A DNA stretch of 10,941 bases from Campylobacter sp. (GTDB taxonomy: Bacteria; Campylobacterota; Campylobacteria; Campylobacterales; Campylobacteraceae), in assembly GCA_017940085.1 (NCBI GenBank), contig JAGAZK010000129.1:1-10941 (forward strand), written 5' to 3'. Position numbers and translations under genes: made by a program. The stretch's first letter is position 1. The number at the start of each line of letters is the position of its first letter. The notes under the pieces were generated by a model. It made no database searches. It was not told the DNA's origin and saw nothing but the letters and a program-made list of their open reading frames with translations. Positions 1 to 8,672 of this stretch are shown in pieces.

Positions 1-268
1 AATATTCCACACTCTCTATGCTTCTAACAGCTCTGTTTTGCTTAATCTCAAAATCAGAAATCTCTATTTTTGGCAAATTTGCCCAAAGTTTTTGGCACCA
101 TTTAAGACGCAAATTTGGCGGTGCAAAAAATTTATCTTTAAAAGGATTTAAAAATGCTGGGATTATTATAAGTTTGTCGATTTGTAAATCTTTTAAAGCT
201 TGTTTGATGATGATTTCATGGGCATTGTGTGGGGGGTCGAAACTGCCTGAAAAAATTGCGATATTCAA
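1..268 (-). CDS. nadD: NadD, N-terminal half (nicotinate-nucleotide adenylyltransferase), inverted and cut by the window edge
   Basis: Reading the minus strand from a TTG at 268-266 gives 89 open codons to position 1. They begin MNIAIFSGSFDPPHNAHE and end SIESVEY. This is the nucleotidyltransferase half of NadD, which adenylylates nicotinate mononucleotide in NAD synthesis: the GSFDPPH motif lies at residues 8-14 and the HxxH pair at H14/H17. The ATP-binding second half is not downstream on this strand inside the window; it lies on the opposite strand from position 269. Two usual motif glycines are replaced (S7 and A16). No good Shine-Dalgarno precedes the TTG in this arrangement. If sequence left of position 1 continues with FLNLYKPE, this copy is intact; otherwise it is a broken gene. 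Identity is confident, the start codon moderately so. Confidence 0.85.
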   Translation of the reverse strand, partial: MNIAIFSGSFDPPHNAHEIIIKQALKDLQIDKLIIIPAFLNPFKDKFFAPPNLRLKWCQKLWANLPKIEISDFEIKQNRAVRSIESVEY

Positions 269-272
269 TATT
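1..272. other. Inverted segment carrying the first half of nadD
   Basis: Reverse-complementing bases 1-272 and joining them to base 273 gives GTG GAA TAT TTT TTA AAT CTT, so VEY runs directly into FLNLYKPE with no frameshift or missing codon. The restored ORF has 181 codons, a normal NadD length. Both ends of the segment carry the palindromic hexamer AATATT (1-6 and 267-272), and a further palindrome, ATATTCAATAT, covers 261-271. The segment is therefore either a real inversion with breakpoints in AATATT or a fold-back chimera or assembly join. The sequence shows the arrangement; its cause is inference. Confidence 0.8.
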
Positions 273-550
273 TTTTAAATCTTTATAAACCCGAAATTTG
301 TTATTTTTTAATCGGTGCTGATCAATTAAATGGGCTTAAAAATTGGTATAAATTTGATGAGCTTTCAAATTTAGTCAAATTTGTAGTAGCCTTAAGAGAT
401 GATATTAGTGTGCCAAGTGGTTTGCAAAAACTCAGTATTAATGCTAAAATTTCATCTACAAAAATGCGTCAAAATTTGAATTTTGACGGCGTTAGCGAAA
501 AAATAAGACCAGAAGTGATTAAATTTTATAAGGAAAAACATGCAAAATAG
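269..550 (+). pseudogene. nadD: NadD, C-terminal half, separated from its start by the inversion
   Basis: From codon 269-271 the plus strand reads YFLNLYKPEICYFLIGAD and continues to a TAG at 548-550. The family features here are LIGAD, the NWYKFDEL segment and the ISSTKMR motif near the C-terminus, which corresponds to the conserved SSTxxR ATP-binding loop of NadD. Upstream the frame stays open only to a stop at 248-250, and no plausible start precedes the ISSTKM methionine, so as drawn this half cannot make NadD. Joined to the minus-strand half at 1-268 it completes a 181-residue protein. It overlaps the rsfS start by 11 nt, the usual coupling of these two genes. Called a pseudogene for this arrangement only; it may be an artefact of the join. 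Confidence 0.82.
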
Positions 551-866
551 AATAAATCAAATTACTCAAATCTTAGATGCCAAAAAAGCTGAAGATATTG
601 AAGTAATCGATATGAGCGGTAGAGATTATATAGCTAAATTTGTTATTATCGCTACTACTTTAAATCCAAGACACGGCTCTAGTTTGAAAGATGAGCTTAG
701 CAACACCCTAAAGCCTTTGGGAGAAAAATTTTTAGGAACTGAAGAGAGCGATGAGTGGGTTGTGATTGATTTAGGCGATATTTTGATACATTTGATGAGC
801 CAAAATTACAGAGCAAAGTATAATATCGAAGAGTTTTTAAACGAACTCAAAAACACTAAAGGATAA
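540..866 (+). CDS. rsfS: Ribosome silencing factor RsfS (YbeB/Iojap family)
   Basis: A 108-residue protein of normal family length. RsfS binds ribosomal protein uL14 (L14) on the large subunit and blocks joining with the 30S, damping translation in stationary phase or starvation. Family landmarks are visible in order: DAKKAEDIEVIDMSGR (about 13-28), the FVIIATTLNPRH segment (about 34-45, equivalent to the usual ATGxSxRH), DEWVVIDLGDILIHLMS (about 91 onward in family alignments, here near 71-87), then YNIEEFL at the end. The ATG lies inside the last codons of nadD, with AAGGA at 530-534 as ribosome-binding site. The next gene starts 3 nt after its stop, so it is part of a compact operon. nadD-rsfS adjacency is common in bacteria and supports both calls. 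Confidence 0.95.
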   Translation: MQNRINQITQILDAKKAEDIEVIDMSGRDYIAKFVIIATTLNPRHGSSLKDELSNTLKPLGEKFLGTEESDEWVVIDLGDILIHLMSQNYRAKYNIEEFLNELKNTKG

Positions 867-869
867 AAA

Positions 870-1235
870 ATGCCACACATCAACATTAAATTAACTTCCC
901 CAATGCCAAGCCAAAAAAAGCTTGATTTAGTCGCTCAACAAATTACTCAAATAATGGTAAATGAGCTAGGAAAGACAGCCCAGAGAGTTATAATAAACTA
1001 TGAAGCCGCCGATCCAGATGCATTTTATTTTGGTGGAGAATCCGTAACTCAAATCAAAGCTAAAAAATCTCCAAAAGTAGCCAAAACTACTAAATTATCT
1101 AAAACCACAAAATCCACTAAATCAGCAAAAGATCCAAAAACTACAGCCAAAGTGGCAAAAGCTACAAAAACTGTAGCTAAAAAATCTGCTAAATCCACAA
1201 ATCCAAAGTCCAAAAAATCAAAGGCAAAAAAATGA
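870..1235 (+). CDS. 4-oxalocrotonate tautomerase-family protein with lysine-rich histone-like tail
   Basis: Residues 1-62 form a small tautomerase domain. After Met removal the N-terminus is Pro (MPHINIKLTS), the catalytic base of the 4-OT superfamily, and the conserved end FYFGGESVTQIK is present. The physiological substrate of such proteins in Campylobacter is not known to me. Residues 63-121 are quite different: a 59-residue tail of Lys, Ala, Thr and Ser with 23 lysines and only one acidic residue, resembling histone H1-like or AlgP-type tails that bind DNA or RNA. Ordinary members end near residue 65-70, so this is an extension. RBS AAAGGAT (858-864) overlaps the rsfS stop. Its own stop overlaps the bcp start in ATGA. 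The domain call is solid; nucleic-acid binding by the tail is inference. Confidence 0.88.
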   Translation: MPHINIKLTSPMPSQKKLDLVAQQITQIMVNELGKTAQRVIINYEAADPDAFYFGGESVTQIKAKKSPKVAKTTKLSKTTKSTKSAKDPKTTAKVAKATKTVAKKSAKSTNPKSKKSKAKK

Positions 1236-1723
1236 GCGATTTTAGCAAAGATGATTTAAAAATAACTCTACAAATAGGTGATCTTGCCCCAAATTTTGCA
1301 CTTCAAAATCAAGATGGAGTGCAAGTGAGCTTAAAAGATTTTGTCGGCAAAAAGATTGTGCTTTATTTCTATCCCAAAGATAATACGCCTGGCTGCACTA
1401 CTGAGGCTTGTGAATTTAGTGCAAATTTGAGTAAATTTCGCAAAGCAAATGTCGTTGTAATTGGTATAAGCCCAGATAACATAAGCTCTCATACCAAATT
1501 TATGGAAAAACACGGGCTTGAACATATTTTATTAAGCGATGAAAATAAAGAAGTAGCCAAACTTTATGGTGTTTGGCAAGTCAAGAAAAATTATGGCAAA
1601 AGTTATCTTGGCATAGTTCGATCTACTTTTGTAATTGATGAGAGAGGCAAAATCGCTAAAATTTACAAATCTGTCAAAGCCAAAGGGCATTCAGATAAAG
1701 TTTTGTTGGATCTAACAAAATAA
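1232..1723 (+). CDS. bcp: Bcp/PrxQ-type thiol peroxidase (peroxiredoxin)
   Basis: A 163-residue cytoplasmic peroxiredoxin that reduces H2O2 and organic hydroperoxides using thioredoxin-type reductants. The thioredoxin fold begins at GDLAPNFAL. The active-site loop reads YPKDNTPGCTTEACEF, with C55 as peroxidatic cysteine in the TPGC motif and C60 as resolving cysteine five residues later, the atypical 2-Cys pattern of Bcp. Further family marks are VVIGISPD, FPL-equivalent ILLSDE, and RSTFVIDERGKI. The ATG overlaps the tautomerase stop (ATGA, 1232-1235), implying translational coupling, with AAGG at 1221-1224. A tautomerase gene next to bcp is, as far as I recall, also found in C. jejuni. Confidence 0.95.
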   Translation: MSDFSKDDLKITLQIGDLAPNFALQNQDGVQVSLKDFVGKKIVLYFYPKDNTPGCTTEACEFSANLSKFRKANVVVIGISPDNISSHTKFMEKHGLEHILLSDENKEVAKLYGVWQVKKNYGKSYLGIVRSTFVIDERGKIAKIYKSVKAKGHSDKVLLDLTK

Positions 1724-5368: not shown

Positions 5369-6205
5369 ATGAGCCAAAAAGAAAGCCTTTGTGTGTTTGA
5401 TTGTGAGACTATCCCAGATACTGAGTTGATCGAAAAATTTGCTAGTAGCGATATGCTAAAAGCTTCAAAAAACGGCAAAAAAATTGATCTTAAAAAATTA
5501 TCAGAGCTTTTTATGAAAGAACACGAAGAAAAAACAGGCTCAGGCTTTTTGCCAGTAAATTTTCACAAAATTGTCTGTATTTCGTGTGTGATGTGTGATG
5601 AATTTGGCAAATTTATTAGAGTTACGACAATACCAGCTGAAAATGAAAAAGAAATGATAAACAAATTTTTATCATACATAGATAAATTTAATCCACGACT
5701 TGTAAGTTTTAATGGGCGTGGTTTTGATTTGCCAATGATAATGATTAGAGCGATGAAATACAATCTTAGTGCGACAAATTATTTTTGCACAAATGATAAA
5801 TTAAATGGCAAAGACAAATGGAATAATTATAGATCTCGTTATGATGGGGCTTTTCATTTAGATTTGTTAGATCATATTAGTGATTTTGGCTCAGTTAGGG
5901 GATTTAAGCTTGATACGCTTTGTGCGAGTTTAAATTTGCCCGGTAAATACGATGTCAGTGGCGATCAAGTATTAGAATTATACTATCAAAACGAAAATGA
6001 CAAAATTAGCGAGTATTGCCAGAGCGATGTTTTAAATACATATTGGTTGTTTTTGAAATACGAGCTTTTAAGGGGAAATTTAATCAAAGAAGATTATTTA
6101 AACAATTTAGATTTAATGAAAAATTGGCTAAATCAAAACAAACCTCAAGCTTCATATACGCCTGTATTTGAGCAATATATACAAAAAGAATTAGGAGAAA
6201 TTTGA
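5369..6205 (+). CDS. Predicted 3'-5' exonuclease, PolB-like DEDDy family
   Basis: A 278-residue stand-alone exonuclease domain of the kind annotated as predicted 3'-5' exonuclease related to the B-family polymerase proofreading domain; there is no polymerase part. ExoI contains D11 and E13 (VFDCETIPD), ExoII is [14 protein letters not shown] with D120, and ExoIII is Y216-CQS-D220, the YxxxD form that defines DEDDy enzymes. These four residues would bind two metal ions. The family substrate is presumed DNA or RNA, and its cellular role is not established to my knowledge. AAGAG at 5357-5361 precedes the ATG. It is the first gene of a plus-strand set and shares one base with the epimerase start, so it is likely co-transcribed with it. 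Confidence 0.85.
6193..6197 (+). promoter_or_regulatory. Ribosome-binding site deciding the epimerase start
   Basis: AGGAG lies 7 nt before the ATG at 6205. This favours that codon over the in-frame TTG at 6202, which would only add one methionine-equivalent residue. Confidence 0.8.
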
Positions 6206-7248: not shown

Positions 7249-7281
7249 TTCAAATTTAGTCTAAATTTGGGCAAATTTATT

Positions 7282-8094
7282 ATGAAATTTATACTTTTTG
7301 CGGTTTTTATTTTTGTTAATTTGCATGGCATTATGCTTGTAAGTGAATACAAAGACCAAAATTTAAGCGGCTGGGTGATGAGTGAGAAATATGACGGAGT
7401 GCGTGGATTTTGGGACGGAGAGAATTTACTTAGCAAAAATGGCAAACAAATTCACGCTCCAAAGTGGTTTTTGGACGCTTTACCGCCATTTGCGATAGAT
7501 GGTGAGCTTTGGTGTGGTAGAGAAAATTTTCAAAAAGCCGTATCAATTACAGCAGATCTAAATCCAAGCGATGAGTGGCGAGATATTAGATATATGATTT
7601 TTGATGTGCCAAATGCTAAAGGCGATTTGCACGATAGACTTGGCGTTTTAGAGCAGTTTTTGGCAAAAAATGAGAGTAAATTTATAATTATTATCACCCA
7701 AATCCCAATAAAATCAAAATCTCACGCTTTTGAGTTTTTAGATGAGATTACGAAAAAAGGCGGTGAAGGCATAATTTTAAGAGATCCAAAAGCTTCTTAT
7801 TCTCACTCAAGAAGCACAAAAATTCTCAAACTCAAGCATTTTAAAGATAGTGAGTGCGAGATTGTTTCTATCAATGAAGGTAAAGGTCGCTTAAAAGAGC
7901 ATTTAGGCTCAATAACTTGCAAAGATTTACAAACAAAAGAGATTTTTAAAATCGGCTCAGGATTTAGCGATGAGATTCGTAAAAATGGGCTTAGAATAGG
8001 GCAGATTATTACTTACAAATACCAAAATCTCACAAATAAAAATAAGCCAAGATTTCCTGTGTTTTTGCGAGTGCGTAGTGATTTTGATAAATAA
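7282..8094 (+). CDS. ATP-dependent DNA ligase, minimal Lig E type, with signal peptide
   Basis: With the ATG at 7282 the protein has 270 residues and begins MKFILFAVFIFVNLHG, a short basic then hydrophobic leader typical of a Sec signal; the TTG at 7267 would add MGKFI ahead of it. Nucleotidyltransferase motifs follow: I is EKYDGVRG with adenylation lysine K36, III is IDGELW (72-77), IV is EGIILR (162-167) and V is ILKLKHF (181-187). An OB-fold of about 80 residues ends the protein. There is no DNA-binding domain, as in Lig E enzymes, which are proposed to work in the periplasm on incoming or extracellular DNA. It begins 33 nt after the epimerase stop with a weak RBS and is probably in the same transcript. 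Confidence 0.92.
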   Translation: MKFILFAVFIFVNLHGIMLVSEYKDQNLSGWVMSEKYDGVRGFWDGENLLSKNGKQIHAPKWFLDALPPFAIDGELWCGRENFQKAVSITADLNPSDEWRDIRYMIFDVPNAKGDLHDRLGVLEQFLAKNESKFIIIITQIPIKSKSHAFEFLDEITKKGGEGIILRDPKASYSHSRSTKILKLKHFKDSECEIVSINEGKGRLKEHLGSITCKDLQTKEIFKIGSGFSDEIRKNGLRIGQIITYKYQNLTNKNKPRFPVFLRVRSDFDK

Positions 8095-8450: not shown

Positions 8451-8672
8451 TCAATCAGGTGGCATATAGCCCTTTTTTTCTTGAGCCATTTTTTTGCGTT
8501 TTTCCATTTGGTATGCGTCATTTAGGGCGTCTTGGCTGTCGTATTTGGTGCCGCCTAAAAATTTTTCATAATCTTCAAATTGCTTAGTTTTTATCCCCCA
8601 AATTAGTCCAAACAAAGCCAAAGCTCCTAAAAACAAGGAAATTCCTATCATTACAGCAAGAATATTACTCAA
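8451..8672 (-). CDS. ccoS: cbb3-type cytochrome oxidase assembly protein CcoS
   Basis: A 73-residue membrane protein with one N-terminal transmembrane segment (about 5-26) followed by the CcoS hallmark FGLIWGIKTKQFEDYE, where the helix exits into an aromatic-acidic cytoplasmic segment. The C-terminus is charged and soluble. CcoS is needed for cofactor insertion into the cbb3 oxidase, the high-affinity terminal oxidase of microaerophiles. The start is TTG (8672-8670), supported by AAAGGAT (8684-8678) 5 nt upstream, inside the last codons of ccoI. Only 3 nt separate it from the ccoI stop, so the two form an operon. Confidence 0.92.
   Translation of the reverse strand: MSNILAVMIGISLFLGALALFGLIWGIKTKQFEDYEKFLGGTKYDSQDALNDAYQMEKRKKMAQEKKGYMPPD

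Follow-up and report, generated by a model that had tools for sequence, protein, structure and literature searches.

The window analysed here is the whole of one contig, C102 (10,941 bases), from a draft Campylobacter assembly of 268 contigs and 1,500,737 bases that is 83.55% complete; position 1 of the window is the contig end. At that end nadD lies in two pieces on opposite strands, and the three genes that follow it are undisturbed (Table 1). The reading frames of nadD and rsfS overlap by 11 bases. The tautomerase-family protein scores 25.6 bits against TIGR00013, for which the cut-off is 56.9, and its second half is a Lys/Ala/Thr/Ser-rich tail that we take to be reminiscent of histone-H1-type DNA-binding tails. 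Further along the window, positions 7267-8094 encode a PRK09125-family DNA ligase whose N-terminus is hydrophobic, as in an exported protein, and the open reading frame at 5369-6205 has no NCBIfam match whatever. Promoter and tRNA scans added nothing.

Table 1. Features around the split nadD gene, with positions in the window.
Feature	Position	Strand	Remarks
AATATT at the end of C102, where the distal repeat copy is cut to half its length	1..6	+	
N-terminal half of nadD (codons 1-89), in opposite orientation to the C-terminal half	2..268	-	TTG start; open reading frame open at the contig end
Stretch matching the last 79 bases of contig C18 at every position (79/79), there following gapA and a ribosome-site-like AAGG	200..278	-	
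AATATTTTTTAA, the copy of the perfect 12-bp inverted repeat that lies at the abnormal junction	267..278	+	nadD codons 88-92
C-terminal half of nadD (codons 90-181 plus stop), lacking a start of its own	272..550	+	92 codons
rsfS (ribosome silencing factor), undisturbed	540..866	+	
Tautomerase-family protein with a long Lys/Ala/Thr-rich tail, undisturbed	870..1235	+	TIGR00013 below cut-off
bcp-type thiol peroxidase, undisturbed	1232..1723	+	

Both pieces belong to the NadD family, as they match complementary parts of the TIGR00482 profile (194 positions): the N-terminal half covers profile positions 1-85 and the C-terminal half positions 94-187. Each falls short of the cut-off set for the whole protein, which is what one expects of half a sequence. 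In an alignment with seven intact relatives the two adjoin directly, with no column lost or repeated. The original prediction had described a gene divided between the minus strand (268 to 1) and the plus strand (272-550), from which turning the first piece around restores 181 codons with the frame intact, and the profile matches and alignment bear out both parts of that description. Its further wording, a precise 272-bp inversion, is not supported. Because position 1 is the end of C102, just one of the two junctions of an inversion is visible, and because bases 1-6 and 267-272 are each the palindrome AATATT, the breakpoint cannot be placed within that motif. The segment looks precise because C102 stops inside the repeat that would form its other boundary.

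The start of the gene also stands elsewhere in the assembly in its uninverted setting. One end of contig C18 (14633 bases), on which gene names were assigned by reading, carries gapA, encoded on the minus strand, followed by AAGG, TTAAAAAATATTG and the opening codons of nadD. C18 and C102 diverge at the outer edge of a 12-mer, beyond which gapA lies on C18 and the C-terminal nadD half on C102. Since C18 runs into gapA, the uninverted gapA-nadD start is present in the sequenced DNA, and the normal arrangement is thereby seen at the left junction. Two further junctions were sought in the assembly, in which stretches of N may have gone unsearched, and neither was found: the right one in its normal form, running from codon 88 to 90 (17-base pattern), and the second one of an inversion (18-base pattern). 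The assembly therefore shows one normal and one abnormal junction when both orientations are sought.

The uninverted start on C18 is also why we set aside an inversion fixed in the lineage, with NAD made in another way, as scarcely conceivable, even though C102 itself reads across the inverted junction. Matches to PF01467 in the assembly are three: the N-terminal half of nadD, a CoaD-like protein beside a thymidylate-kinase-like open reading frame, and an HldE-like protein, the last two named by reading the open reading frames. A second NadD was thus sought with PF01467 and not found in the 83.55% complete draft, and the reversed state is one without a complete NadD. With only the CoaD-like and HldE-like proteins besides the N-terminal half, a lineage that had lost NadD for good would be expected to survive only with difficulty. 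nadD is generally held to be essential in most bacteria; a literature search on its essentiality in Campylobacter led to work on Porphyromonas instead. Public data also speak against a fixed inversion. In a search whose alignment contained the relatives and, each in a row of its own, the two halves, and in which 8000 candidates were scored and the best 120 of 2503 compared, an intact public NadD of 181 aa proved 97% identical to each half and belongs to a cluster of 13 member sequences. A search for a short truncated NadD, with the N-terminal half as query against proteins of similar length, found none, a weak test because it needs shared exact words and lengths near that of the query.

At the abnormal junction, AATATTTTTTAA is the perfect inverted copy of TTAAAAAATATT, which precedes the nadD TTG on C18, with 260 bases between them. 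Inverted repeats thus lie at both ends of the segment, as they do in invertons, the second copy being cut on C102 by the contig end. Among 1,000,000 random inverted position pairs drawn from the 52 sampled contigs that were readable, with a spacing of 150-500 bases, a complementary run of at least 12 occurred in 3, a rarity from which we conclude that the join was made through the repeat. Perfect 12-bp inverted repeats are common in this AT-rich draft and nothing special: the 402,812 sampled bases contain 206 pairs with arms 0-500 bases apart and 18 with arms 200-300 bases apart, counts that leave out the nadD pair, which spans two contigs.

To see how the locus is built in related genomes, we searched 15 others of the same genus, counting matches at E 1e-5 or better. 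Both nadD halves were matched in 11 genomes, the N-terminal half alone in 1 and neither in 3. The genus, Campylobacter, is deduced from a same-genus genome, G002 (L008), whose NadD shows 98% identity to a protein named as that of C. iguaniorum. In all of the 11 (11/11), gapA, the nadD N-terminal half, the C-terminal half and rsfS are collinear and adjacent, and nadD is intact, with open reading frames of 181-182 codons except in L010 and L013, where the frame has 284. Looking for both orientations in related genomes, as the original prediction had proposed, thus yielded no inverted one among these 11. The N-terminal half matched 12 loci on the contigs of other genomes, at best with 56% identity, and so no second assembly of the species is among them, where near records may have been left out. 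The 284-codon frames (1511-2365 in L010, 906-1760 in L013) are nadD and rsfS fused as one; L013 matches both TIGR00482 and TIGR00090, and L010 is assigned by its length. Both Pfam domains also occur together on many public proteins among the matches listed.

The repeat does not share the conservation of the gene order. Its upstream arm, which separates AAGG from the TTG start codon, is similar in 11/11 relatives and identical in 1, while the arm inside the gene has not been retained. Perfectly complementary 12-mers at the two places occur in 0/11 same-genus nadD loci, which show 4-8 mismatches, and the best arm complementarity within 30 bases in the 11 relatives still has 2-5 mismatches. A repeat pair kept in relatives is a supporting sign of an inverton, not a strictly defining one, and it is absent here.

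Gene-altering or intragenic inversions and invertons have reportedly been described by Jiang (2019), Milman (2023) and Chanin (2024). Invertons and intragenic inversions, as described in PMC11868660 and PMC11892184, resemble the nadD locus in having short inverted repeats around a segment of a few hundred bases over a gene start, and the 12 bp found here lie within the range of 10-40 nt that PMC11892184 gives for inverton repeats. Unlike the cases in those papers, the nadD locus shows no second junction, no recombinase was found, the repeat is unconserved and the target is a housekeeping gene. A programmed inverton, in which a recombinase acting on the 12-bp repeat would control nadD and the genes downstream, has in addition to explain an upstream arm that is a spacer similar in 11 relatives without the partner arm, and a target gene that is generally held to be essential in most bacteria. 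No tyrosine or serine recombinase (PF00589, PF00239) matched in the assembly, which is 83.55% complete and in which 29/80 sampled contigs read N throughout; as controls, the two profiles matched in 14/14 and 10/14 genomes, respectively. XerH would be expected in this genome, and because this expected protein is missing as well and the draft is incomplete, the negative is a weak one. Nor was a recombinase among the 12 protein pieces of the window compared with NCBIfam, a set that leaves out the 73-aa open reading frame at 8451-8672. We regard a programmed inverton as extremely improbable.

The abnormal join at 267-278 is most probably an in vitro chimera, formed at the inverted repeat and retained by the assembler at a contig end; such an origin would explain all of these observations. 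On C102 two nearby segments meet at one inverted junction with short complementarity, as a chimera of this kind would leave them, and the junction lies close to where the contig breaks off within the other copy of the repeat. The repeat itself, the presence of just one new junction, the normal left junction on C18 and the collinearity of relatives are observed; that the event took place in the tube, and the path of the assembler, we infer. The true chromosome order would be gapA, TTAAAAAATATT, nadD to codon 88, AATATTTTTTAA, the remaining nadD and rsfS. While the DNA was being amplified or the library prepared, a 3' end lying in one repeat copy would have paired with a strand bearing the other and then been extended; fill-in of a frayed end may be an alternative route. 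The product would join the C-terminal part of nadD to the reversed N-terminal part, and the assembler would take this chimeric join and halt inside the repeat at position 1, so that the true gapA-nadD start would end up as the end of another contig. A mixture of chimeric and normal molecules would branch the assembly graph at both repeat copies, which would fit one contig ending in one copy and another shortly past the other.

Published chimeras offer precedents. In the study of multiple displacement products by Lasken and Stockwell (2007, PMC1855051), inversions made up 406 of 475 mapped chimeras from MDA of one E. coli cell, and 76.8% of the MDA chimeras had at least 2 complementary bases at the join, with up to 21. 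Those chimeras resemble the nadD join in that nearby segments are inverted at short complementarity (at most 21 nt there, 12 nt here). They differ in that an intervening deletion is described as accompanying them, whereas the nadD pieces abut exactly, which they do because C102 stops in the other repeat copy. The same paper attributes its MDA chimeras mainly to displaced 3' ends priming on nearby strands and not to hairpin self-priming, which counts against a chimera here. For sonicated libraries, Chen et al. (2024, PMC10908179) describe reads that hold the sequence between natural inverted repeats reverse-complemented, explained there by the PDSM model; the inter-repeat sequence is reverse-complemented at nadD in the same way. 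In their description, however, the libraries are human and the chimeras are low-frequency reads, whereas here one would have entered an assembly.

What tells against a chimera is that the assembler took the abnormal branch and that neither the normal right junction nor the second inversion junction was found in the assembly. Since the assembler chose it, the abnormal junction cannot have been far less frequent than the normal one in the reads used at that point, except with very low coverage or with a chimera produced at an early stage of amplification. A real inversion of the first 88 nadD codons across the 12-bp repeat in a minority of cells would give the same contigs. It would arise by illegitimate recombination or by template switching in replication, would be selected against through the loss of NadD, and would have had both of its states assembled. 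The perfect 12-bp repeat sits exactly where this would need it, the normal left and abnormal right junctions in one assembly look like a mixture, and the point inside the repeat at which C102 stops would be the branching point of the two orientations. Against it, the second inversion junction was not found in an assembly whose N stretches may have escaped the search, the protein collection held no short truncated product (the weak test above), and cells that lose NadD would probably be too rare to win the assembly path. On balance such an inversion is unlikely.

We also considered that software alone made the join, merging the reversed gene start and the C-terminal piece through a 12-base end overlap with no chimeric read. 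The overlap would then equal the 12-bp repeat, in which C102 likewise stops; yet nothing else would explain why both pieces finish precisely at the repeat, and assemblers normally demand longer overlaps, which makes a pure misjoin very improbable. In search of an assembler fingerprint, we compared the ends of sampled contigs. Among 102 ends of 52 readable contigs, four share at least 20 exact bases with another contig (25, 76, 79 and 107), and no common overlap length emerged as an assembler fingerprint. One assembler uses 79 as a k value, to which we give no weight. The three overlaps besides C18-C102 resemble natural repeats, as judged by reading: one is AT-rich and contains mismatches, one is the repeat-rich tail of a protein and one is chemoreceptor-like. 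In one, the 3' ends of two genes for repeat-rich proteins (L085 5256-5362 on contig C47 and L083 1-107 on C45) share 107 identical bases and remain similar past them, being either a paralogue pair or an assembly break at a repeat. Contigs C10 and C33 have in common, with a few mismatches, an AT-rich sequence that includes a C9 run (L048 3978-4105 and L071 1-128); short pieces of it recur in C35 and C45, as in a dispersed repeat.

Apart from C18-C102, the end overlaps gave no junction of the nadD type, and no further one was recognised in the sampled contigs. A coding-strand screen for junctions near contig ends listed 11 ends, and in a revised form 13 ends with seemingly ordinary start and stop codons; as neither version listed the known case, C102, the screen is uninformative either way. 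With no other such junction recognised and a screen that missed C102, the draft is not demonstrably prone to chimeras, a point against the chimeric origin that we favour.

In its overall interpretation the original prediction had weighed a reversible switch, a subpopulation, a compensating NAD route and an artefact, leaning towards the last, and that preference is strengthened by the uninverted left junction, the single junction at a contig end, the unconserved repeat, the collinear order in 11/11 relatives, the intact public allele and, weakly, the lack of a truncated form. The suggested on/off switch on NAD synthesis and on the rsfS-tautomerase-bcp genes finds no support except the repeat itself. 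A related picture, in which the 12-bp repeat flips nadD codons 1-88 in a minority of cells and so gives transient NAD-starved, dormancy-like cells able to revert, appears quite improbable. An inverted join without its second junction should not be named an inversion, and if the join is an artefact it is a useful warning that a chimera at a contig end can mimic a clean intragenic inversion. A genuine inversion, by contrast, would put a gene that is generally held to be essential under a reversible DNA switch.
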